Assembly (NCBI GenBank): GCA_947441115.1
Contig: CANESS010000009.1
Coordinates: forward strand, 1 to 33,385
Reading direction: 5' to 3'
DNA: 33,385 nucleotides
From: Saprospirales bacterium
GTDB taxonomy: Bacteria; Bacteroidota; Bacteroidia; Chitinophagales; JADJOU01
A program made the position numbers and the translations under genes. Of this stretch, positions 11,731-23,122 are shown piece by piece. Position 1 is the first letter of the stretch, and each line of letters starts with the position of its first letter. Below the pieces are notes generated by a model. That model made no database searches, had not been told where the DNA came from, and saw only the letters and a list, made by a program, of their open reading frames with translations.

Positions 11731-11941
11731 AGAATAATTAAAACTATGGTTTCAAGCCAAGAAAGCCACAAGATTAATATATAGAACATTATATCTATAT
11801 TGAATGTAAAATAAATAACTGTACTTTAACTGCGAATCTATTTAATACTTCCTACAATAAGAGAATAAAGATTGACGGAAAACTTATAACTCTACACAGA
11901 TTATTATATATTACCTAAGGACTTTACACAGATTTCTGGAC

Positions 11942-12130
11942 ACTCTCACTGCATCAAAGCGCCCACTAACTTTCACATCGCCTCCACTAACTTCTACAAA
12001 GCTTCCACTAACTTCATCAAAGCTCATAGTATCTGCTTCAAAGCGAATATTAACTTCATCAAAGCTTCCACTAACTCCATCAAAGCGAATATGAACTTTA
12101 TCGAAGCTCAAAGTACCAGCATCAAAAGAA
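11942..12130. repeat. Nine-unit degenerate 21-bp tandem repeat
   Basis: Nine consecutive 21-bp units can be laid end to end with no gaps (11942, 11963, 11984, 12005, 12026, 12047, 12068, 12089, 12110). The shared core is CTAACTTCATCAAAGC. Two subtypes occur, one beginning CCACTAAC and the other ATATTAAC. A tenth partial unit may start at 12131 (ATATTAA). Because 21 is a multiple of three, the minus strand reads as a heptapeptide repeat of the type SFDEVSG. There are no unique spacers, so it is not a CRISPR. I read it as a minisatellite in a gene-poor gap rather than as a gene. Confidence 0.85.
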
Positions 12131-12170
12131 ATATTAAGAAAAAGATATAAATATTTAATGGACTGGAAAT

Positions 12171-12206
12171 AAAAAACCCTCTGTGAGATTGCTCTATCAC
12201 AGAGGG
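12171..12206 (-). terminator. Rho-independent terminator of the three-gene T9SS operon
   Basis: CCCTCTGTGA (12177-12186) pairs perfectly with TCACAGAGGG (12197-12206), a 10-bp stem with a 10-nt loop. On the minus strand it is followed by six T residues (12176-12171). It lies 22 bp after the stop of the chimeric gene and has the textbook form. The plus-strand side has only CTTTAAA, so it would end plus-strand transcripts poorly. Confidence 0.88.
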
Positions 12207-12228
12207 CTTTAAATGAACTGCTGGGCGG

Positions 12229-12852
12229 TCATGATTTCCTATTGGTGAAGGAAAGGGATTTGACCTGTGCATATTCAGGGCTAGTGGTGCCGAAGATAGA
12301 ACGGACGTAAAGCTTGACTGCCATGGCTATGTCATAGAGACCAGTCTCTTTTTTATAGAGGACCTTATCTCTGTCGATACGCGTATTGCTGATAGCTGCC
12401 ACGGCTATGGCCACTTTGTTGTTCTTGTCTAGCAAGTCCGTCACATAACTATCCAAATATGCGATTTTGAGGTCGTTTTCGTTTGGTGCAAAAGGGCTAG
12501 TCGCCCAATCAGAGCCATAACTCAAACTATCGCCACCTTCTATCAATCTATGTTTTCCATTGAATATTTTAGACCCATTAGAATAAAGTATTAGACTATC
12601 ATTTTTATCGAATAACTGTACATTACATGCTCCAAGACTGAGAGAATAGCCAAATCTAGTAAGAGTAATTGGATTGTTTTTAAAATTTAAAATTGTCGAT
12701 CCATGTTGTGTTATGTAAAAGTCTGTATCGGGTGTTGAGGTATCCTTTTTAAATTCTGTCTGATAACCAATATACCAAATTTTAGGATTAACCACTTGAG
12801 CGTGGCTAATCCAAAATAAATTGATAAATAGTAAAACTACAATTAATCTCAT
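12229..12852 (-). CDS. Chimeric protein: copied N-terminus of the upstream T9SS cargo fused to an unrelated C-terminal domain
   Basis: A 207-aa product with a signal peptide (residues 1-18, ending WISHAQ). Residues 19-116 match the same region of the adjacent 511-aa protein at about 80 of 98 positions by eye. They share VVNPKIWY, KKDTSTPDT, HGSTILNFK and DKNDSLILYSNGSKIFNGKH. The match stops at GSDW (residues 113-116). The rest (PFAPNENDLKI to the end) is unlike anything else here; RDKVLYKKETGLYDIA and LYVRSIFGTTSPEYAQV resemble, from memory, the C-terminal half of a small conserved Bacteroidota protein of unknown function. GC also shifts at the seam: about 28% over 12601-12720 and about 47% over 12241-12420, hand-counted. 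It has no T9SS tail. The ATG directly follows the stop of the 511-aa gene (TAAATG). It may be a non-functional recombination product, but the frame is intact. Confidence 0.75.
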   Translation of the reverse strand: MRLIVVLLFINLFWISHAQVVNPKIWYIGYQTEFKKDTSTPDTDFYITQHGSTILNFKNNPITLTRFGYSLSLGACNVQLFDKNDSLILYSNGSKIFNGKHRLIEGGDSLSYGSDWATSPFAPNENDLKIAYLDSYVTDLLDKNNKVAIAVAAISNTRIDRDKVLYKKETGLYDIAMAVKLYVRSIFGTTSPEYAQVKSLSFTNRKS

Positions 12853-14388
12853 TTACTTTCTTATTTCAATACGCCTAACCACTTCGTCAGAGTATTTATA
12901 ATCTGTAAATTTTATAAAATAGTATCCATTTGACAACCTTGATAAATCAATATCATGTGCAGTATTCCCATAAACTAATTCTTTACCAAGTATATCATAG
13001 ACAACATAATGAATTGGTCTGATAAATTTAACACCTTTAATGGTACATTTATCTAAAACAGGATTCGGATAGACCTCAATCCTTTCTAACGAATTATCCG
13101 TAATTCCACTCTCTCCACACTTATCTGCCACTGCGCCGAGTTCGTAGTTAGGGTGTTTAGGTAAACCACCAACAAATGTTAGTAATTTGATAGCGTGTTG
13201 TTTAAAATTGCATAAAATACCTGTATCGTTTGGATTTTCGATGACATGCAGAAAACGTGTAGTTTCGGTTGTACTCATGTATATCTTTCCATCATGTGCA
13301 ATTTGGATGACACCTAAATCTGTTGGGATACCTCCAGATTGTCCACTTGGTGTATCGGTATAACCATCGTAATTAGCTATTTTGCGCAGTTTCAATCCAT
13401 TGAAAATATCTGCTTGGTAATATTTATTTCTATTTCCTAAATAGAGTAGCCTACTGTTCGGCGAAAAGCCTCCTGCTCCAGCATAAATTATGGTATCACT
13501 TGTAGGAATAGTAATAACTCTTCTATTTGTTAATCCTCCATTGCAACGGTTAAAATCAAACAATTCTACTCCTAAATGAGTAAATGAAGCAAACATTGAA
13601 CCATCCCAACTAAATTGATTTGTAAAATTCCCTCTCTCTGCATTCCAATCTACTAAATCCCAACCTGATACTAAAGGTTCTGAATGAATTTTAATGCCGT
13701 TGCTATCCAATAGCATGACTATAAAATTTTTCTTTCCATACTCACGAGTAATTATCCACCAGTCTCTTCCATTCCCATGTTTACAGGCGGTTATTGCCTC
13801 TCCTAATTCTCCACTTTTTAGTGCTATTTCTTTTTCTATAACTATTCCTTTACCGCCATTCAAACTCAGATCAACTAAAGAATATACAAGTTTTGGGTTG
13901 TTATTAAAATCACGACTAATAAAAATAGAAATAAAATAATACTGAGCTTCATTTTTGATACTCGGAAGAGCTATCATGGGATTTTGATATGACCCAATTA
14001 AAAAGTGCCCATAATAATTACCGGCAAATATACTTGTACGCCAATCAGAACCATAACTCAGACTATCTCCCCCCTCTACCAATCTATGTTTTCCGTTAAA
14101 TATTTTAGAACCATTAGAGTAAAGTATAAGGCTATCATTTTTATCATACAGTTGTACATTACAAGCTGCAAGACTCAAGGCATATCCAAATCTAGATACA
14201 CTAATTGTACTAGATTTAAAATTAAGAATAGTCGAACCATGTGGTTTAATATAAAAAGCAGTATCTGGGGTTGATGTATCTTTTTTAAGGTCTGATTGGT
14301 ATCCAACATACCAAATTTTTGGATTAACCACTTGTGCATGGTTAATCCAAAAACTTAATAAAAAAATGAAACTTATTATATACTTCAT
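12853..14388 (-). CDS. T9SS type A cargo, WD40-like/propeller surface protein
   Basis: A 511-aa secreted protein. The signal peptide is residues 1-18 (ending WINHAQ). The body (about 20-420) reads like the propeller-type N-terminal region of many Bacteroidota secreted proteins. It has a YSNGSKIFNGKH strand, GGFSPNSRLLYLG, and near the end HDGKIYMSTTETTRFLHVIENPN plus GGLPKHPNYELG, which recalls the 'DGKIY...VINNPN...GLPN' signature of those proteins. Residues about 440-511 form the Por-type T9SS sorting tail: IEVYPNPVLDKCTIKG, then YDILGKELVYG and LSNGYYFIKFTD. The tail directs export and is normally cleaved during anchoring or release. Its ATG follows the stop of the giant gene with no spacer (TAGATG), suggesting coupled translation. 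The ligand or activity is unknown. Confidence 0.88.
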   Translation of the reverse strand: MKYIISFIFLLSFWINHAQVVNPKIWYVGYQSDLKKDTSTPDTAFYIKPHGSTILNFKSSTISVSRFGYALSLAACNVQLYDKNDSLILYSNGSKIFNGKHRLVEGGDSLSYGSDWRTSIFAGNYYGHFLIGSYQNPMIALPSIKNEAQYYFISIFISRDFNNNPKLVYSLVDLSLNGGKGIVIEKEIALKSGELGEAITACKHGNGRDWWIITREYGKKNFIVMLLDSNGIKIHSEPLVSGWDLVDWNAERGNFTNQFSWDGSMFASFTHLGVELFDFNRCNGGLTNRRVITIPTSDTIIYAGAGGFSPNSRLLYLGNRNKYYQADIFNGLKLRKIANYDGYTDTPSGQSGGIPTDLGVIQIAHDGKIYMSTTETTRFLHVIENPNDTGILCNFKQHAIKLLTFVGGLPKHPNYELGAVADKCGESGITDNSLERIEVYPNPVLDKCTIKGVKFIRPIHYVVYDILGKELVYGNTAHDIDLSRLSNGYYFIKFTDYKYSDEVVRRIEIRK

Positions 14389-17300
14389 CTATTTAATTAC
14401 TTGAATATGTGATTTAAAAACAATTTCCTTTTCATCTACTATTCTCAACATATAGATTCCTTCAATCCATGTATTTGTATTTATTACGTGGCGGTTTGTA
14501 TTCATATATTTTGACTCCCGATACAATTCTCTACCCAATACATCTGTGACTATGAATGTCAAATCTAAATCAGGAATATAGCTTAGATGAATATTGGTCT
14601 TATCAGAAGTAGGATTTGGGAATAGACTAAAGCTCAGTTGTCTTTTCTGACTGACTGGTTCGTATTTAATAGGTTTCAATGCTTTGAGCGTGATACCTAA
14701 TGGCGCGCAGAGGATAGAATCATTGTAAATGGTAGTATCTCCTCTCGACCATAGTATACCTCTACTGCGATAAACTCCATCTAATTGTTCAAATGGACAT
14801 CGATTAGCTAGTGAAGTGTATGTTTGAATTTGAACATTATTGAGAACAGTCTGTCCTTGTCCATAGGTTTGATAGTAGATAGCCAAAAACACATTGCGTA
14901 AGGAATCAGAAATACATTCTGGTATTATGGAATCCGATATTATTTGAATTTGCTGTATCTCTGACTGATAGGCAGTATCGGCATGTGCTAATAGGTTTCT
15001 GAATAGGGTGTCTTGTGTCCATATCCACGAGCGAAGCTGTGTTCGCGCCTGCTTTATGGAAGCCAAACTAATGGAATCTATCGCTTTTTTATACGCACTA
15101 TCTAAGCTATATAGTTCTTCCCATGCACTATCAATAGCAGTTTTTAGTTGAATAACTTGTGTAGCGTAAGCCTGTGCGGCGTGATAGGCATTTCTATCTA
15201 TCACATTGATTTGTGTAAATTCATTTATAGAGCCATCTTCCATCTGAGCTAAATAATCTCTAAATATAGAGGTATCTCGGAGTTCAAATTCATAAGGTTT
15301 GATTTTATCATAAAGGTCTTTTCTGTACTGCCATGTGAGCTCAGGCTCAAAGTCTCCAAAGACCATATTATTTATCAATATAGCTGTATCGGTCGTCGTC
15401 ATTTCTATCCCGAATACAGGTTCTGTATTTTTTCCTATAGGTCTGAAACCTCCTCCTCCATCTTTAACTATAATATCACCCTTATTTCCTATGGGAACAG
15501 AAACCCATCCACCTGTGCTTGCAAAAGGACTGCAATTGTTTGTTTCTACTCCATTAGGATTAGTTAAGAAAAACCACCACTGGTTAGTTGTTGCATTTGG
15601 AAATCTTGGATTAGGTAAATACTGAGATGAAAAATTACTATAATAAAAAGTTGTTGGTCTAGCTTGATTACTCTGCGCTTCTCTAAAACAAGTACCACTA
15701 AATGTATTCCCTGCCCAGTAGTGGTCTTTGAGTGTAGAAAGTGTATCGAGTCGTAATCCTAGTCGGTGATTTCTAATGTTATTCTTTGACCAAGTAGAGG
15801 CATCGCAGTTTCCAAAAAATCGTACGCCATTGAATACACTATCGAGTAAATTACAGCTAAACGAACCAGTCGTATTCTCATAATACTGCCCTATAGGAAG
15901 GCTCGGCGTACCAAAGGCAGAAAATCCATAGGTAGGAGAAAATCCCTTGACCGTGTTTTCCTTGTCTATAATATTACCACAGTTGTAATAGTGAATCCCA
16001 TAGCGCATCGCATTGGTCGTGAATCGACAGTTATTGCCCTGCACTCTGACCAATTGATTCTTAGACGCTGTAGGATAGTTGAGTAGATAAATTCCACGAT
16101 GTGCATCGCCTTTTATGATATTATTTTCGACATAGAGAGAACTTTGGTCAAAACTTAAGGTATTTTTCAGAGCTCTGACACTATGTGTTATCACATTGGA
16201 AAATGTATTCTGCTCCACTACTGCCGAAAATCTATCTAATGAATTGTCAATAATATCCACCCCTACATACGCAGGTTTTGTGCTTCCTTCAAACTTACAG
16301 TTTTTGACAGTCAGAGTCTTATTGAGTATATAGCTATGATTGACTTCTGTTACCACGCCATAAGTGACTCCACTGAAGTAAACACCCGACACATTTGTAT
16401 TTTGGTGCTCGGTCGTATAGATACCATTGAGTACATTGCTGATATGAGGAAGTGCATTGGACGAATAACCGCCAAAAATCAAACTACCTTTTTGAGTAAA
16501 CCTATTTCCTTCGGCATAGACCGCATATTCTCGAATAGGTGTAGAAGCCTTATACAGCATATCTCTAAACAGAGTATTATAGACATAGAGTTCAGACCCG
16601 TAGGCAAGAATTCCATTATTCATATTCTCAAAAATATTAGAGGCTGCGTTACCATGACCTAATTGAAGTGTTCTCGTATTTTCAACTATGATACCCGCCA
16701 GTGGCACACCATAGGCTGTGGAAGTGGATACAGTTGGTCTAAATTTGGTGTATTGATTGAGTACTATTCCGTTATATGGAATCTTGACCTTACCAGTAGT
16801 TTGGGTGGTTCCTGAACCTCTAAATTTATTGCCATGAATTGATAGGTAGGTAGGTAAGATTATAGACTTAGGAAATGGCGTACATACATTGATATCGTCG
16901 CCAAATACATGTAAACCGATAAGATTATCTTCAAATAAATTATTAGTAATTGTAGGAATCATCGAACGTCTTATCTCTAATCCTTTATAGCAGTCTCTAA
17001 TTTCGTTATTCGTAAAATTGAGATTAAACCCAAAAACATTTCCATTATTACTACATTCTCTAATAGTTATACCATGTGCCAATTTAGTGCCACAAGTATA
17101 AATTAAATTATTAAGCATAGTGAGGTTATCGACTGAATTTCCATTGCAGTCAGATGGTACATCTATTCTTGCTCCTTCATCTAATACAATGTTGCAATAA
17201 CGAAAATCTGTATTAGAGTTTATAGTAAATGTCCCTTTTATTTTGATACTTTGCTTGGATAGGTTGGTCGAACTCAATCTTCCTGTACTGATAGCCGAAT

Positions 17301-20300
17301 TTATGTCCGCAAATCCATTGCCCCCATATCCATCGCCTAGTTTGAGGAAGGAGTCGGGGTGCGGTATCTGCGAAAGTATCCGTTGACAACCGCTCGGTTC
17401 AGTTATCGTCACCGTATATTTGGTAGATAGATTGGTTACTTTTATCATCGGTGTCGTAGCTCCTGTACTCCATTGATAAGTTGCCGATGAATTTCCTGCA
17501 AGGATAATGGCCTTCAAGGTAGAAGTATCGCCTGCCAGACAATTTGATTTTACCTGAATATAGGCATCTAATATACTTGGATTGGGGTCAGAACGTAATG
17601 TTGTTGTATCATAGGTAATGCAGCCAGTAGAATCAGTTATGGCTACAATATAAGTGCCAGGGGTTAAATTTGTTCTAATAGAATCTCCCCAAACTAATTG
17701 ATCATCCCAAATGAATGTATATGGAGGTGTACCCGAAGTAGGGTCTATCTGAATACGGTTAAATCCGCAATAGGTTTGATAAACTCCCTTATCTATCGTT
17801 ATCGGATTTTCAAAAATGTTCGTTATGGCTATACTATCAAAACAACCTATAGAATCAAAAATCCAAAAACTATATGTCCCAGTCGGGGTCAAACTATCTC
17901 GTACTCGAGAGGTATCACCACCTATCCATTGTATATTGACTTGTCCATGACCAGTTAAGGGGAATATCGTCACCGTGGCTAAATTGGTTATACAGTTAGC
18001 ATCTTTTAATAGACTGAATTGGATAGGGTCTAGGTCTCGAGGAACATAAAATGTATCTTCAATTACACAGTTGATGCTATCTGTAATCCTCACCGTGTAG
18101 AATCCTGAATCAATGTTTATGAGATTTTGAATTGTATCTCCTGTACTCCATAGGTATCTAAAGGGGGCAGTACCTGTAGGTTGCAAATAGATAGCTCCTG
18201 AATTCGCAAAGCACAAGGTAGATAATATAGAGTCTCCACTTTTTAAAGACGTGTCGGGAAGGGAGTTTATCACAAAACTATCAGCTTTATTACATCCAAA
18301 AGTATCGGTCACCGTGACTTTATATGTCCCTGTGGGTAAATTGGTTCTATCCTTCGCGGTACTGGCATTTGACCATAGATAAGTATAGAAATTATTATAT
18401 CCTCCACTTGGGTTCAACACAATACTCCCCGAAGTTAATCCACATTGAGGATGAACAAGAGTTGGATTTAATTGGATATTAAACTGTATAGTGGTTAAAG
18501 TCGTGGTGTCTTTTAATTCACATCCATTATTATCTGTCACGGTGAGATAATAAGTGTTGGCATTTAATCCTGTTCTGTTCAATGTAGTAGCTCCACCATT
18601 CCATAAATAACTATGTGGGGCTGTACCTCCATTGGATGCGACTGATATACTTCCATTGATAGCGGTGCAAATTGGATGTTTAACTGTTTTATAAAGTATC
18701 AAAGTATCCATAATACGATTGACTACCTTGGTGTGAACCTTCGTACAACCAATTGAATCGGTCACCGTCACCGTATATGTCCCATTCGTTAACCCAGTTC
18801 GGAAAGAATCGGTCACAGAGCTTGCTCCGCTCCATGAGTAGGTATAAGGTTTGACTCCGTTCCTTGGGGTGACATAAATACTACCAATATTGGCAACACA
18901 GCGTGCATGGGTCACTGTATCCGTGACGATAAGTGCCGTATCAAAGGCTCTGGAACTAGCAACAGAACTACATCCATTTTGAGATATTTTCACGCCGTAG
19001 AGTCCGTTACTTGTCGCTAAATGGCTAGCAGAATTTGATCCTACATTTGTGCCATCTTTCTGCCATTGATAAGTATATGTTCCACTTGGATTGGTAATCA
19101 CTGCTTGCAAAGGAATATTGTTTCCACACCATATCGCAGAAAGTGGTTTTATTGTAGCGACAACTGGACTACCTGAAGACGTATCGTTTAGGTTTAGTGA
19201 GGTTTGCGCTTTAAAGCATGGGTTGGCGATGGATTTAATCTGAGCTTGGGTCGGTATCTTACAATTACTCTTCACGACAGCTGTCGTACTAAATTGAATA
19301 AAGCTCGGTGAAGTAATACTAAAAGCAGAATCTAGGGAAATTTGGTAGGATAATAGCTGACCATTCAATGTAGGACCTGATTGATACTGTATAGGAATTA
19401 GTTGACTAGGAAACGTGTCGGTAAATAAAATATCGGATACGGCTAAAGGGGAAATATTACTTACTACATAAGTGAAGATAATAGTATCACCAACTATGGG
19501 ATTGGGTTTATTGACCGACTTTGTTACCGTGATATCATGATTCTTTGGAAAGACCTTAACCCAATCCGAAATCTCCGATACACAATAAGCATTGCAAGAA
19601 TAGCCTGCTGTAATTGTATGACCTCTATCGGTGGCTACCTTAGTATAGTCTATCGTATATTTTAGTTTGAGTGTATCGCAAATGGCATTGGATATTGCGC
19701 CTGAGGGTATTTTGTATCGACCTGTAGCATTAAAGTCACTTCCCGAAGCAATCGTAAATCCATACGGTAGATTGACTTGCACGATAATAGAGTCAGAATT
19801 GACCCCTATGCTATTCTCTAAACAAACATAGTATTCTATTGTCTGGGTGGTATCGTTGCATGGTATCAAACTATGTGGATTAGAAGCTATGACTGCTCGT
19901 GTAGCCAATGAATCATAAATTTCAAAATTGTCGAAATAACAATAATGCTGAAGTATGTTAGGCTCTGCTGTGTCCAAGGCTACATCAGACATGATAATCA
20001 CATCCGTAAATGAATCTCCAGCTTTAGGCAATGCAATAGGGATAGAATAATAGGCCCAGGTATCAGAGGTAATATCCAAAGTACCTAGGGTGTCGCAGAA
20101 TTGCGCACACGTGCGAACCCCGCCAACTAATGGACGTATAGGATTAGGGGGTGGCTGTGGCAAGGTATCATCAGCCACTGCTATCATTTTAAAATTAGAA
20201 GCACACCCATTAAATACTTTGGCGAGAAATTTTAATTTGAGTCGCTTAGTAGTATCGTGATAAATAGGTTTTTTTAGTTTGAAATGAAAACCCTCTGTAT

Positions 20301-22179
20301 AGACACTCGCTCCTGATTCCGCATAAATACCCATAAATTGATTGCCTCCATTGATATGAGGGTGCACGCCATAGCTATTAAACTCACATCCTGTTCCTAC
20401 CACATTGCAATCCGCCCAATAATTATCAATGACATTTCTTCGACAAGTTACTGCACCTGTAGAATTCCAGAGGTCAGCTGTATTGTAGTCAAAAATAGGT
20501 TCATAGATAAGGAAGCCATGCCAGAGATTAGGATCATCGGATTCTTCAAATGTGCCATAACAAATATAATTACAGTCGTCATTCGGAATACAAGGAGGCA
20601 GTGGTGGATAGGGATAGCGTATGGTGATATAAGTGGCATTGCCCGGCTGTGCAGATGCATTACATTGAGGAAAATAGACGATTCTCACCTCTCCATATTT
20701 GAAGTGAGGCTTGGGGGTAAAGGTAAATCCAGTCGTATTAAAGGTCAATGTTCCTTGTGATGTATCTAGTAGCTCCATACGAGGAATAATGGAACTCGAA
20801 GGGATGTCATTCGTCAATATCTTTGTGCTAAAGGTGCGAGTGCAAGCTCGCACTGTATCCATGACAATAGTATCATGTCCACCAACGGCGATGCATGGTT
20901 CGGTGCAACTGCTATAGGTTTTATAAACATTGCCTTGACTTGCATTATTAGAGATGTTAGCTCCAAAAGCATAGACTCCACTGACTGCCTTTAATTTATA
21001 TCCTAAATCGCAGAGCGCATAAACCTCATCTTGGTGCGGGTGTCGCTTGATATAGGTTTGACCACTTTGCAAACAAGGTACCATGACATAGTAATTGTTT
21101 GGCTTGGCATAGTTGGTATTACAAGTACTTCCTGCACAAGAAAAATTACTCAGATTAATATTTGTATTCCAAGGAGTATCATTATATACATGAATATTAG
21201 AAGAGTCTCCAATAAATCGTACGTCATTAGGGCTACTGCATCCAGATGGAAGAGTCGTTGTATTGGTTATTTGCTTGGTGGAGCTAGAATAGGTAAATAG
21301 TTTAGAACTACTAGTATTTTTATACAAATAGTTATCATAACGAGCGTAGAGATTATTTCCCCCTCTCGCATTTCCATTTTGCAGAATATTGGAGGATAGC
21401 CCCAGCATATGCAGAGCTTGCTGAAGTGTATGCGTATAGAGATCATCTTGATTGCTCGGAATAGAACTCGTATCATTAAAATTAGTGTACCACGTTTTGT
21501 TTTTAAAATTGACTATCAATAGACCATGTGTATAATTATAAAAGGAACTATGGAGTTGATTATCCATACCCATGAGATTGGTATAGGCTGATTTTCCATT
21601 TTTAATACTCGTATAGATAATATTGTCCATCCAAGCATTTTTTAGATTGTATTTAATAGGTTCAAATGAAGTTCCTACAATGTTCACTCCACTAGGAAGG
21701 GATATACCAGAATTTTTAACTGTAATGGACGTATCCGAAGCGACCATGAGATTGATGTAAGGCGCACTGCTACCACTTTGATTTTCTATTAATCGACTGA
21801 TATCTCTATATACTTCACAAATGACATCTCTATGTGCAGCAAGAGAAAAGCCAGTCCCTGAAACAGGTTCTTGCACAAAATGGAGCTTAAACATACCTGA
21901 GGTACAGGAATCTTTAATAGGAAATGGCATAGCGAATGAAACTGTTGACCCGCCTGAACTACCGCCAGAAGTAACTGATGGATTGGTTTTTATGGCTATC
22001 TCATTGGGGTGGTATAGATTGCCGAATCTGTCTTTCAATGCCACGTCACCTGATAATTGTTTAAAATTAGTGCGACTTGGTATTTGTTTATTAATCATTT
22101 CCTTTTGGGCACATAAATTATTAAACACAACTATCAAGGCTATACATACCAATAGTCTTAGGGTAAGAGATTTTTTCAT
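14389..22179 (-). CDS. 2596-residue T9SS type A giant: degenerate zincin, DUF11, SprB repeats and beta-helix
   Basis: A secreted mosaic protein with signal peptide MKKSLTLRLLVCIALIVVFNN. Residues about 90-390 resemble a zincin metalloprotease domain, with DDLYTHTLQQALHMLGL where DLYS..LHEI.HALGF is expected. The HExxH position reads QQALH (253-257), and the domain ends with the family-like DEVYALCDLGYK. Next come a cadherin-like segment (about 435-515), a Cys-rich region with a possible carbohydrate-binding fold (about 537-760), a DUF11-type domain near 880-990 (KSVNKPNPIVGDTI) and an Ig-like module. Six or seven SprB-type repeats lie at about 1080-1600 (GTYTVTVTDSIGC and relatives). A right-handed parallel beta-helix occupies about 1610-2180 (NLFEDNLIGLHVFG, IFENMNNGILAYG). 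A helical charged segment spans about 2290-2450, and the Por tail the last 75 residues (SLFPNPTSDKTNI, VTDVLGRELYRE). It is the first gene of the operon. The function is probably surface adhesion; the zincin is likely inactive. Confidence 0.9.
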   Translation of the reverse strand: MKKSLTLRLLVCIALIVVFNNLCAQKEMINKQIPSRTNFKQLSGDVALKDRFGNLYHPNEIAIKTNPSVTSGGSSGGSTVSFAMPFPIKDSCTSGMFKLHFVQEPVSGTGFSLAAHRDVICEVYRDISRLIENQSGSSAPYINLMVASDTSITVKNSGISLPSGVNIVGTSFEPIKYNLKNAWMDNIIYTSIKNGKSAYTNLMGMDNQLHSSFYNYTHGLLIVNFKNKTWYTNFNDTSSIPSNQDDLYTHTLQQALHMLGLSSNILQNGNARGGNNLYARYDNYLYKNTSSSKLFTYSSSTKQITNTTTLPSGCSSPNDVRFIGDSSNIHVYNDTPWNTNINLSNFSCAGSTCNTNYAKPNNYYVMVPCLQSGQTYIKRHPHQDEVYALCDLGYKLKAVSGVYAFGANISNNASQGNVYKTYSSCTEPCIAVGGHDTIVMDTVRACTRTFSTKILTNDIPSSSIIPRMELLDTSQGTLTFNTTGFTFTPKPHFKYGEVRIVYFPQCNASAQPGNATYITIRYPYPPLPPCIPNDDCNYICYGTFEESDDPNLWHGFLIYEPIFDYNTADLWNSTGAVTCRRNVIDNYWADCNVVGTGCEFNSYGVHPHINGGNQFMGIYAESGASVYTEGFHFKLKKPIYHDTTKRLKLKFLAKVFNGCASNFKMIAVADDTLPQPPPNPIRPLVGGVRTCAQFCDTLGTLDITSDTWAYYSIPIALPKAGDSFTDVIIMSDVALDTAEPNILQHYCYFDNFEIYDSLATRAVIASNPHSLIPCNDTTQTIEYYVCLENSIGVNSDSIIVQVNLPYGFTIASGSDFNATGRYKIPSGAISNAICDTLKLKYTIDYTKVATDRGHTITAGYSCNAYCVSEISDWVKVFPKNHDITVTKSVNKPNPIVGDTIIFTYVVSNISPLAVSDILFTDTFPSQLIPIQYQSGPTLNGQLLSYQISLDSAFSITSPSFIQFSTTAVVKSNCKIPTQAQIKSIANPCFKAQTSLNLNDTSSGSPVVATIKPLSAIWCGNNIPLQAVITNPSGTYTYQWQKDGTNVGSNSASHLATSNGLYGVKISQNGCSSVASSRAFDTALIVTDTVTHARCVANIGSIYVTPRNGVKPYTYSWSGASSVTDSFRTGLTNGTYTVTVTDSIGCTKVHTKVVNRIMDTLILYKTVKHPICTAINGSISVASNGGTAPHSYLWNGGATTLNRTGLNANTYYLTVTDNNGCELKDTTTLTTIQFNIQLNPTLVHPQCGLTSGSIVLNPSGGYNNFYTYLWSNASTAKDRTNLPTGTYKVTVTDTFGCNKADSFVINSLPDTSLKSGDSILSTLCFANSGAIYLQPTGTAPFRYLWSTGDTIQNLINIDSGFYTVRITDSINCVIEDTFYVPRDLDPIQFSLLKDANCITNLATVTIFPLTGHGQVNIQWIGGDTSRVRDSLTPTGTYSFWIFDSIGCFDSIAITNIFENPITIDKGVYQTYCGFNRIQIDPTSGTPPYTFIWDDQLVWGDSIRTNLTPGTYIVAITDSTGCITYDTTTLRSDPNPSILDAYIQVKSNCLAGDTSTLKAIILAGNSSATYQWSTGATTPMIKVTNLSTKYTVTITEPSGCQRILSQIPHPDSFLKLGDGYGGNGFADINSAISTGRLSSTNLSKQSIKIKGTFTINSNTDFRYCNIVLDEGARIDVPSDCNGNSVDNLTMLNNLIYTCGTKLAHGITIRECSNNGNVFGFNLNFTNNEIRDCYKGLEIRRSMIPTITNNLFEDNLIGLHVFGDDINVCTPFPKSIILPTYLSIHGNKFRGSGTTQTTGKVKIPYNGIVLNQYTKFRPTVSTSTAYGVPLAGIIVENTRTLQLGHGNAASNIFENMNNGILAYGSELYVYNTLFRDMLYKASTPIREYAVYAEGNRFTQKGSLIFGGYSSNALPHISNVLNGIYTTEHQNTNVSGVYFSGVTYGVVTEVNHSYILNKTLTVKNCKFEGSTKPAYVGVDIIDNSLDRFSAVVEQNTFSNVITHSVRALKNTLSFDQSSLYVENNIIKGDAHRGIYLLNYPTASKNQLVRVQGNNCRFTTNAMRYGIHYYNCGNIIDKENTVKGFSPTYGFSAFGTPSLPIGQYYENTTGSFSCNLLDSVFNGVRFFGNCDASTWSKNNIRNHRLGLRLDTLSTLKDHYWAGNTFSGTCFREAQSNQARPTTFYYSNFSSQYLPNPRFPNATTNQWWFFLTNPNGVETNNCSPFASTGGWVSVPIGNKGDIIVKDGGGGFRPIGKNTEPVFGIEMTTTDTAILINNMVFGDFEPELTWQYRKDLYDKIKPYEFELRDTSIFRDYLAQMEDGSINEFTQINVIDRNAYHAAQAYATQVIQLKTAIDSAWEELYSLDSAYKKAIDSISLASIKQARTQLRSWIWTQDTLFRNLLAHADTAYQSEIQQIQIISDSIIPECISDSLRNVFLAIYYQTYGQGQTVLNNVQIQTYTSLANRCPFEQLDGVYRSRGILWSRGDTTIYNDSILCAPLGITLKALKPIKYEPVSQKRQLSFSLFPNPTSDKTNIHLSYIPDLDLTFIVTDVLGRELYRESKYMNTNRHVINTNTWIEGIYMLRIVDEKEIVFKSHIQVIK

Positions 22180-22220
22180 ACTTTATTGATTTAGTTTTCA
22201 GGTCAACAATAAAATATAAA

Positions 22221-22371
22221 GGGTGTGAACCAGCTGCACTGCCACTAAAATACCTTAAAGGGTCTGAAACCTCGCATAACACTTAATAGCAAGCAGAGGA
22301 CACACCCAGAAGGTGTGGTCTTACTTGCAGTTACCAGTTACGCTTATTTTAATTTCAGACTTATAAGGTAT
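22221..22371 (-). promoter_or_regulatory. Candidate structured leader RNA of the giant T9SS gene
   Basis: Nested complementary segments suggest a folded RNA. The outer arms are 22250-22269 and 22353-22371 (ATACCTTA and GTCTGAAA pair with TAAGGTAT and TTTCAGAC). Inside are GCATAAC at 22274-22280 with GTTACGC at 22337-22343, then GCAAG (22289-22293) with CTTGC (22324-22328), then the apical hairpin CACACC/GGTGTG (22301-22306 with 22312-22317). The second helix has one mismatch on the plus strand but a G-U pair on the minus strand, so the minus-strand transcript, which reads into the giant gene, folds better. A downstream copy of the apical arm (GGGTGTG at 22221-22227) could compete for 22301-22307, as in switching leaders. 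I match it to no known riboswitch. It could also be a free-standing ncRNA or a small palindromic element. Confidence 0.4.
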
Positions 22372-22475
22372 AGTTACGACTTAGTTGAACCGCTTTATAT
22401 TTTTATTCTGTTAATTCATTTTTTAAGTTTAAATTAATAACAAACTGTCAGCTTCTAATAGCGAACATTTATAAA

Positions 22476-22483
22476 CAAAGATA
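22476..22483 (-). promoter_or_regulatory. Possible -7 box of the giant T9SS operon
   Basis: TATCTTTG on the minus strand is the only TAnnTTTG match in this gap. It would give a leader of about 290 nt that includes the structured element. No -33 element is seen at proper spacing. Confidence 0.3.
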
Positions 22484-22550
22484 ATTCATTTTGCAAATAA
22501 AGGTTAAAAGAAAATTTGGTAATAGTTAGCTGCTTTTTTGAAAATGAATG

Positions 22551-22631
22551 CCTTAGCCCCGATAGAAGCGGTAGCCCACAGCGACGAAGGAGCGAGGACT
22601 ACAAGCGGATAGCGGGATGAAGCTCCTAAAA
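22551..22631 (-). repeat. Terminator-like intergenic hairpin of a dispersed Bacteroidota type
   Basis: The plus strand reads AGCCCCGATAGAAGCGG, a variable middle, then AGCGGATAGCGGG and AGCTCCTAAAAAA. AGCCCCG pairs with CGGG..GCT and GTAGCCC with GGACTAC, flanking a purine-rich internal loop with GATAG on both sides. From memory, the same conserved ends around a variable hairpin recur between genes in many Bacteroidota genomes. It sits directly after the stop of the GNAT gene, so it may serve as its 3' end. It is GC-rich in an AT-rich setting. Confidence 0.6.
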
Positions 22632-22633
22632 AA

Positions 22634-23122
22634 TTATAAGGCTCTTTCCCACTTCATAATAAAATCATTCATAAAATATCCCTGACCGATATCAAAATCG
22701 TCTACATGATCTATTTTAAAGCCCAGCTTGAAATAAAAATTTATGGATTTATAATTACTGCGATTTACGGTTAAAGTAAATGACTGAACCGATGGATATA
22801 AACTGCATAGTTGACTAAAAACTTTCGCACCATAGCCCCGACCTTGTATGTCTTGGTCTATATAAAATTTATGAATAAACATATTTTCTTCTCCACTAAC
22901 TGATAGAAATCCAACGGGCTTCTCAGCCAATACTAAAAGATAGAACTGATGCTTCTTTATGATCATCTGCTCCGTAATGCCCTCAGTCGAATAGATTTTC
23001 GCAAGCATATAATCTACTTGTTCTTGACCCACTATAGGTACATAGTGATGATTCCATATTTTCAATGCTAGAGAATATATTATCGGAATATCCTGTATAT
23101 TAGCTTTTATTAGTTCTATCAT
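22634..23122 (-). CDS. GNAT-family N-acetyltransferase
   Basis: A 162-aa protein of the usual GNAT length that transfers an acetyl group from acetyl-CoA to an amine. The acetyl-CoA loop (motif A) is visible as IHKFYIDQDIQGRGYGAKVF near residues 83-102, with the Q-G-R-G-Y-G pattern that holds the pyrophosphate of CoA. It is followed by the motif B-like VNRSNYKSINFYFKLGFK (about 119-136), where the Asn and the Y-x-K-x-G-F pattern are typical. The N-terminus (IELIKANIQDIPIIYSLA) fits the first strand and helix. The substrate cannot be predicted; small molecules or a protein N-terminus are possible. It has its own -7 box and stands apart from comF by 47 bp. Confidence 0.88.
   Translation of the reverse strand: MIELIKANIQDIPIIYSLALKIWNHHYVPIVGQEQVDYMLAKIYSTEGITEQMIIKKHQFYLLVLAEKPVGFLSVSGEENMFIHKFYIDQDIQGRGYGAKVFSQLCSLYPSVQSFTLTVNRSNYKSINFYFKLGFKIDHVDDFDIGQGYFMNDFIMKWERAL

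Follow-up and report, generated by a model that had tools for sequence, protein, structure and literature searches.

The window, a stretch of 33,385 nucleotides from a Saprospirales bacterium, contains a real fusion gene, found in one genome, in which the start of a T9SS cargo gene runs on, without a break in the reading frame, into the 3' end of an unrelated gene that stands alone elsewhere. We consider it probable that this lineage-specific fusion formed in place, by a tandem copy of the cargo followed by one deletion. Tracing the tail of the chimera exposed a locus made of a gene and an array, which is the part of most interest.

Extent and junction of the chimeric gene

The chimeric ORF (positions 12229-12852, minus strand) was complete, with a frame open over its 207 codons, and the two-part structure with intact frame proposed in a sequence-only reading was confirmed. 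The cargo-derived part comprised residues 1-121 (12490-12852, minus strand), with the N-terminal region of a propeller-like cargo and a putative signal peptide that was recognized by inspection (charged start, hydrophobic stretch, and apparent cleavage site MRLIVVLLFINLFWISHA/Q, SHA/Q). The donor-derived tail comprised residues 123-207 (12232-12486, minus strand). GC content changed from 31.7% on the 5' side of the breakpoint to 44.8% on the 3' side, and GC3 at the join from 0.23 to 0.55; the step that had been put at about 28% to about 47% was real, and its figures were close. In the 207-aa chimera, searches of Pfam and NCBIfam returned no accepted domain. The T9SS sorting domain (TIGR04183/PF18962) matched both upstream genes and was not found in the chimera, as expected from the proposed loss of the T9SS tail.

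The breakpoint was placed at about 12484-12489 (minus strand), in codons 122-123, where Ala122 is common to both parents and Pro123 is donor-like. At the join, the parents have about 3 nt (TGC) in common. The match to the cargo had been thought to end abruptly at GSDW (residues 113-116), but it ran on through TSPF (118-121). The switch was assigned to codons 122-123 because an orthologous cargo, at locus L095, has QTSPFARN at the place of ATSPFAPN in the chimera, and because Tyr157, which is invariant in the donor family, is replaced by Phe121 in the chimera, as in the cargo. The donor-derived stretch was longer than the ORF, as both the tail and the first ~70 nt past the stop codon aligned to donor loci.

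The cargo-derived part and the tandem duplication

The parent cargo (511 aa; 12853-14388, minus strand) has a signal peptide and, at its end, a T9SS type A sorting domain (TIGR04183/PF18962); its stop codon abuts the ATG of the chimera. The two proteins were identical at 94 out of 124 positions (76%, E 7e-68) and, over mature residues 19-117, at 81 out of 99 (82%; 80% in DNA), in good agreement with the earlier count of about 80 out of 98 mature positions for a copy covering residues 1-116. In its own genome and 99 relatives, the adjoining gene was the only close match to the N part, with other family members at 41% or less.

A scan of GTDB contigs revealed no chimera, only one cargo and one donor gene, which lay apart. 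The cargo ortholog was that of L095, a MAG contig filed as Lacinutrix, where a giant protein and the cargo form a pair with zero spacing, without a chimera after the pair. The chimera was identical to the 511-aa cargo at 85 out of 104 positions, and the L095 cargo at 77 out of 104 to the chimera and 75 out of 104 to the 511-aa cargo. The L095 cargo falls outside both copies of the window; therefore, the duplication occurred within this lineage.

The duplication had been described as recent, which the dS values do not support: between the N-terminal copy and its 511-aa parent, dS was about 1.15-1.3, dN about 0.10, and dN/dS about 0.09 (Nei-Gojobori). The duplication is thus old, with near-saturated synonymous divergence, and for a large part of the period that followed it both cargo copies evolved under purifying selection. 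It may be that this selection took place before the fusion, on a second copy that was still full-length. The fusion itself, which one genome does not allow us to date, could be recent.

The gene row and the surrounding 10.9-kb segment

The first gene of the row (14389-22179, minus strand) encodes a giant 2596-aa protein with SprB repeats and a T9SS tail. A giant T9SS protein and a propeller-like cargo were found to adjoin in three lineages (window, 12853-22179; L095, 46-3243; L052, 7747-11343), with spacings of 0-3 bp overall (0 bp in the window and L095, 3 bp in G001:C35).

The giant gene, the cargo, the chimera, and the array lie in a 10.9-kb segment (11731-22644) that is absent from the close relative G003, in which the PorP-like and acetyltransferase-like genes adjoin and the flanks show 91-92% DNA identity over most of their length. 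No cargo of the 511-aa family was found anywhere in the G003 genome. About 100 bp after the PorP-like gene of the window resemble the congener G002 (local score 50, shuffle maximum 33) and not G003 (17). G003 may have lost the segment. Gain by a mobile element was considered and rejected: the segment contains no integrase or recombinase gene, and the resemblance to G002 makes the polarity ambiguous. Two further features were observed at the ends of the segment. At 11731-11870, next to the PorP-like gene, the sequence is similar to the beginning of the AraC-like gene that follows the PorP-like gene in G002, but it contains stop codons and is probably a decayed remnant. At the right end, 22551-22623 (plus strand) holds a repeat resembling Flavo-1 RNA (RF01705), which at 37.2 bits falls short of the gathering score of 42.

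The tail and its donor family

Residues 123-206 of the chimera, with a match starting at about residue 120, aligned to the C-terminal third of a stand-alone helical family of ~243 aa, in line with the earlier prediction that the tail came from the C-terminal part of a stand-alone conserved family. Amino-acid identity was 78% to G001:C1, 75% to G002:C29, and 67% to G001:C122 (G001 and G002 are both congeners), and 29-52% to more distant members. When the donor profile was applied to the chimera, only profile positions 159-245 matched, and the tail started at donor residue 158-159.

An AlphaFold2 model of a stand-alone member (pLDDT 88) showed two helical units, the first with helices at 9-25, 39-74, 77-90, and 95-110, and the second at 130-153, 166-202, 208-223, and 228-234. 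The tail corresponds to the last three of these eight predicted helices; the five others, in the first two thirds of the donor, are absent. The model of the chimera was poor (pLDDT 46, pTM 0.24), from an alignment of only 11 rows, whereas the same three helices scored above 90 in the full donor model. The conserved tail residues (P, N, E, L, N, R, Y, K, Y, G, S, F) were retained in the chimera, Tyr157 being the exception. Neither the chimera tail nor the tested donor members had an acceptable match in Pfam, NCBIfam, or PHROGs. For the donor family, a PDB profile search gave only a coiled-coil-like match (E 0.0024), and Foldseek gave nothing at or below 0.001.

Donor-family genes were richer in GC than their own flanks in 15 out of 16 loci. 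Higher GC is thus a trait of the family, and the step at the join was discarded as a mark of recent foreign origin. The family is sporadically distributed, with up to six copies per genome. Many members had an internal stop or were shortened, some of them at contig ends (G484, G056:C55, G617, G647, G054, and others), a pattern that would be expected of a family in decay with sporadic distribution and several copies.

In other genomes, a second gene joined to the donor 3' end was observed. At L015 (G052:C55:572-730, minus strand), the last 34 donor residues follow in frame on an XRE-like HTH start, which was weakly called (HTH_19, E 0.006); this looks like a comparable internal deletion and a second, independent join. 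In four loci of family f8, the donor gene is preceded, at a distance of about 20 nt, by an XRE-type ORF, which in one of them is apparently frameshifted. L007, L008, L009, and L017 contain a repeated ~1.7-kb unit that is shared between genera, in the order XRE-type ORF, about 20 nt, stand-alone gene, terminator, and 21-bp-type array; the ORF of L009 is apparently frameshifted. Two loci were associated with methylase genes: at L051 (G002:C11, 7021-10605), the stand-alone gene is separated from its 21-bp array by two genes, one for a DNA methylase and one of 195 aa, and at L106 (G228:C7), a one-unit relative of the donor lies near a similar methylase-like gene. These sites might be an insertion spot.

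Terminator and 21-bp array at donor loci

The 3' third of a donor gene, its terminator, and its array are all present at the site in the window. At the DNA level, the window remains homologous to the donor loci of the congeners beyond the stop codon, across the terminator and down to position 12159. The 3' flank (12159-12228, minus strand) contains a hairpin (12177-12206), about 36 bases of which are identical to one congener, and a T-run (12171-12176). It is followed by a degenerate array with a 21-bp period (11941-12126, minus strand; about 9 copies, score 61), of the type found after stand-alone donor genes.

Such an array was detected within 900 bp downstream of the donor gene in 30 out of 50 loci, window included (for example L005, L010, L013, L098, L101, L128, and L136), and upstream in 3 out of 49, it being understood that the 50 loci are not all independent, as some share one genome or genus. 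Among 502 control windows there were 18 array matches; 16 of them, counting duplicate loci, fell in loci or contigs that carry the donor family or remnants of it, and the other 2 did not. Arrays started at a median of 84 bp after the stop codon, had a median length of 224 bp (~225 bp), and comprised about 11 copies with an exact 21-bp (42-bp) period, the unit sequence varying between loci. A composition artefact was rejected, with no array signal at periods 18-20, 22, or 23 at any of the donor loci, and so was a coding sequence: most arrays had stops in most frames, and no frame was consistently open.

That the period is conserved while the sequence is not, in non-coding DNA next to the genes of a single protein family, suggests a role in DNA structure or in protein binding. 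The donor protein may bind its own array as a phased DNA site, 21 bp being two helical turns. A search of the open-access literature returned nothing relevant on 21-bp arrays and no description of an element made of the donor gene and an array. TAACTGA heptamer repeats, which are placed mostly upstream of start codons (PMC4679880), are a different element. In the open-access text searched, the donor family with its 21-bp array thus seems undescribed. We give about even chances to the interpretation of the donor as an undescribed chromosomal element of Bacteroidota, consisting of a basic two-unit helical protein and a phased array possibly bound by it. The window would then hold a broken copy, and the chimera would be one of at least two joins of a 5' gene fragment to the 3' end of the element.

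Formation of the fusion

The ancestral row would have consisted of the giant SprB-repeat protein, a first cargo copy, a second cargo copy, and an ordinary stand-alone donor locus with its ~243-aa helical gene, terminator, and 21-bp array. One deletion, from codon 121 of the second copy to about codon 158 of the donor, with ~3 nt shared and the frame kept, would have removed the rest of the second cargo with its T9SS tail as well as the first two thirds of the donor. We favoured a single deletion because the donor's terminator and 21-bp array are also at the site. Moreover, the assembly contains no second donor copy and no N-terminal donor fragment, as would follow if the fusion had consumed the donor; this absence covers the part of the genome represented in the 164-contig draft, which is about 93% complete, and the remainder may hold an intact donor. 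The comparable join at L015 also counts in its favour, given the XRE-type ORFs that elsewhere sit just upstream of donor genes. The intermediate, with two full cargos and a full donor, was not seen in the five nearest genomes (four congeners and one more of the family), a small set in which absence is weak evidence.

The sequence-only reading had instead proposed a partial gene duplication joined to a fragment of another gene. Its two-part parentage stands, but a full tandem copy with one deletion gives a more economical account than a partial copy (residues 1-121) joined to a donor fragment copied from elsewhere. The two routes yield an identical final sequence, and a sporadic, multi-copy donor family could offer a source; however, copying requires more events and does not readily explain the donor terminator and array lying at the site in their usual order. 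As no other copy or fragment was found in the assembly, a source within the same genome was rejected, and we regard this route as unlikely overall.

A misjoin might be suspected in a metagenome-assembled draft in which one contig covers the join, and with donor genes that occur in several copies and lie at contig ends in some genomes. Against this, the parents have almost no sequence in common at the join, the N part is distinct (near the join, no other sequence of the genome exceeds 86% identity to it), the terminator and array of the tail run on to the PorP-like gene, both contig flanks are syntenic with G003, and the reading frame is kept. An assembly artefact is therefore very improbable.

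The full chimera was not found in 100 relatives, and the donor profile, run against about 400 genomes from the order and 396 from the phylum, detected no further cargo fusion. Together with the GTDB contig scan, no genome searched showed the full-length two-part architecture that would have indicated an old domain combination. An old, fixed architecture that is merely unsampled would fit the age of the duplication (dS above 1) and the small number of close genomes compared; set against its absence from all these genomes and a compositional step that is still sharp, we judge it the least credible of the explanations, with hardly any chance of being correct.

Expected fate of the product

Through its inherited putative signal peptide, identified by inspection, the product would leave the cytoplasm by Sec. 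Without a T9SS tail, it would not pass the T9SS and would stay in the periplasm. The chimera had been presented as an exported version of a domain that is otherwise cytoplasmic. Stand-alone donor members are indeed without an obvious signal peptide (by inspection), but the claim was overstated: with three of the eight helices and no confident model, a working exported domain is doubtful.

With five of its eight helices gone, the donor's function was most likely lost, and the chimera is probably without donor-like activity, a tolerated relic that ends the gene row. A functional chimera, which would be a small protein of the periplasm selected for a new role, seems less plausible to us, although it has arguments in its favour. 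The frame is intact, the conserved donor residues are kept except for Tyr157, and dN/dS of the N part is low. The tail is no more diverged from the donors of G001 and G002 (78% and 75% identity) than these are from each other (75%). Neither part of the chimera evolves faster than its intact relatives, which hints at constraint, hence at some function. However, this constraint may predate the fusion, three of the eight donor helices are all that is kept, the chimera gave no confident model, and it is absent from all other genomes searched; a selected role is accordingly a tentative suggestion, and a tolerated relic remains our preferred interpretation.

Comparison with known systems

Compared with the donor family of Bacteroidota (~243 aa, two helical units), the chimera aligns over residues 123-206 to the last third of the protein and is followed by the same terminator and 21-bp array. 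It has neither the length nor both helical units of this family, lacks five of the eight helices, and adds a putative signal peptide and a cargo segment. Compared with T9SS type A cargos with a propeller-like N region, the chimera has a putative signal peptide and the first ~100 mature residues, without the remaining protein and without the sorting domain.

Fusion genes that arise by tandem duplication and/or deletion are known in general. As in those cases, two genes are joined in the chimera, the 5' portion of the first running in frame into the 3' portion of the second at a short shared sequence, and its N part is closest to the adjoining gene and split from the outgroup ortholog. It differs in that the intermediate was not seen here, and in that the destination of the product probably shifts from the surface to the periplasm. 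The chimera would be a clean case of a bacterial gene that changes destination and gains a foreign end in one step.
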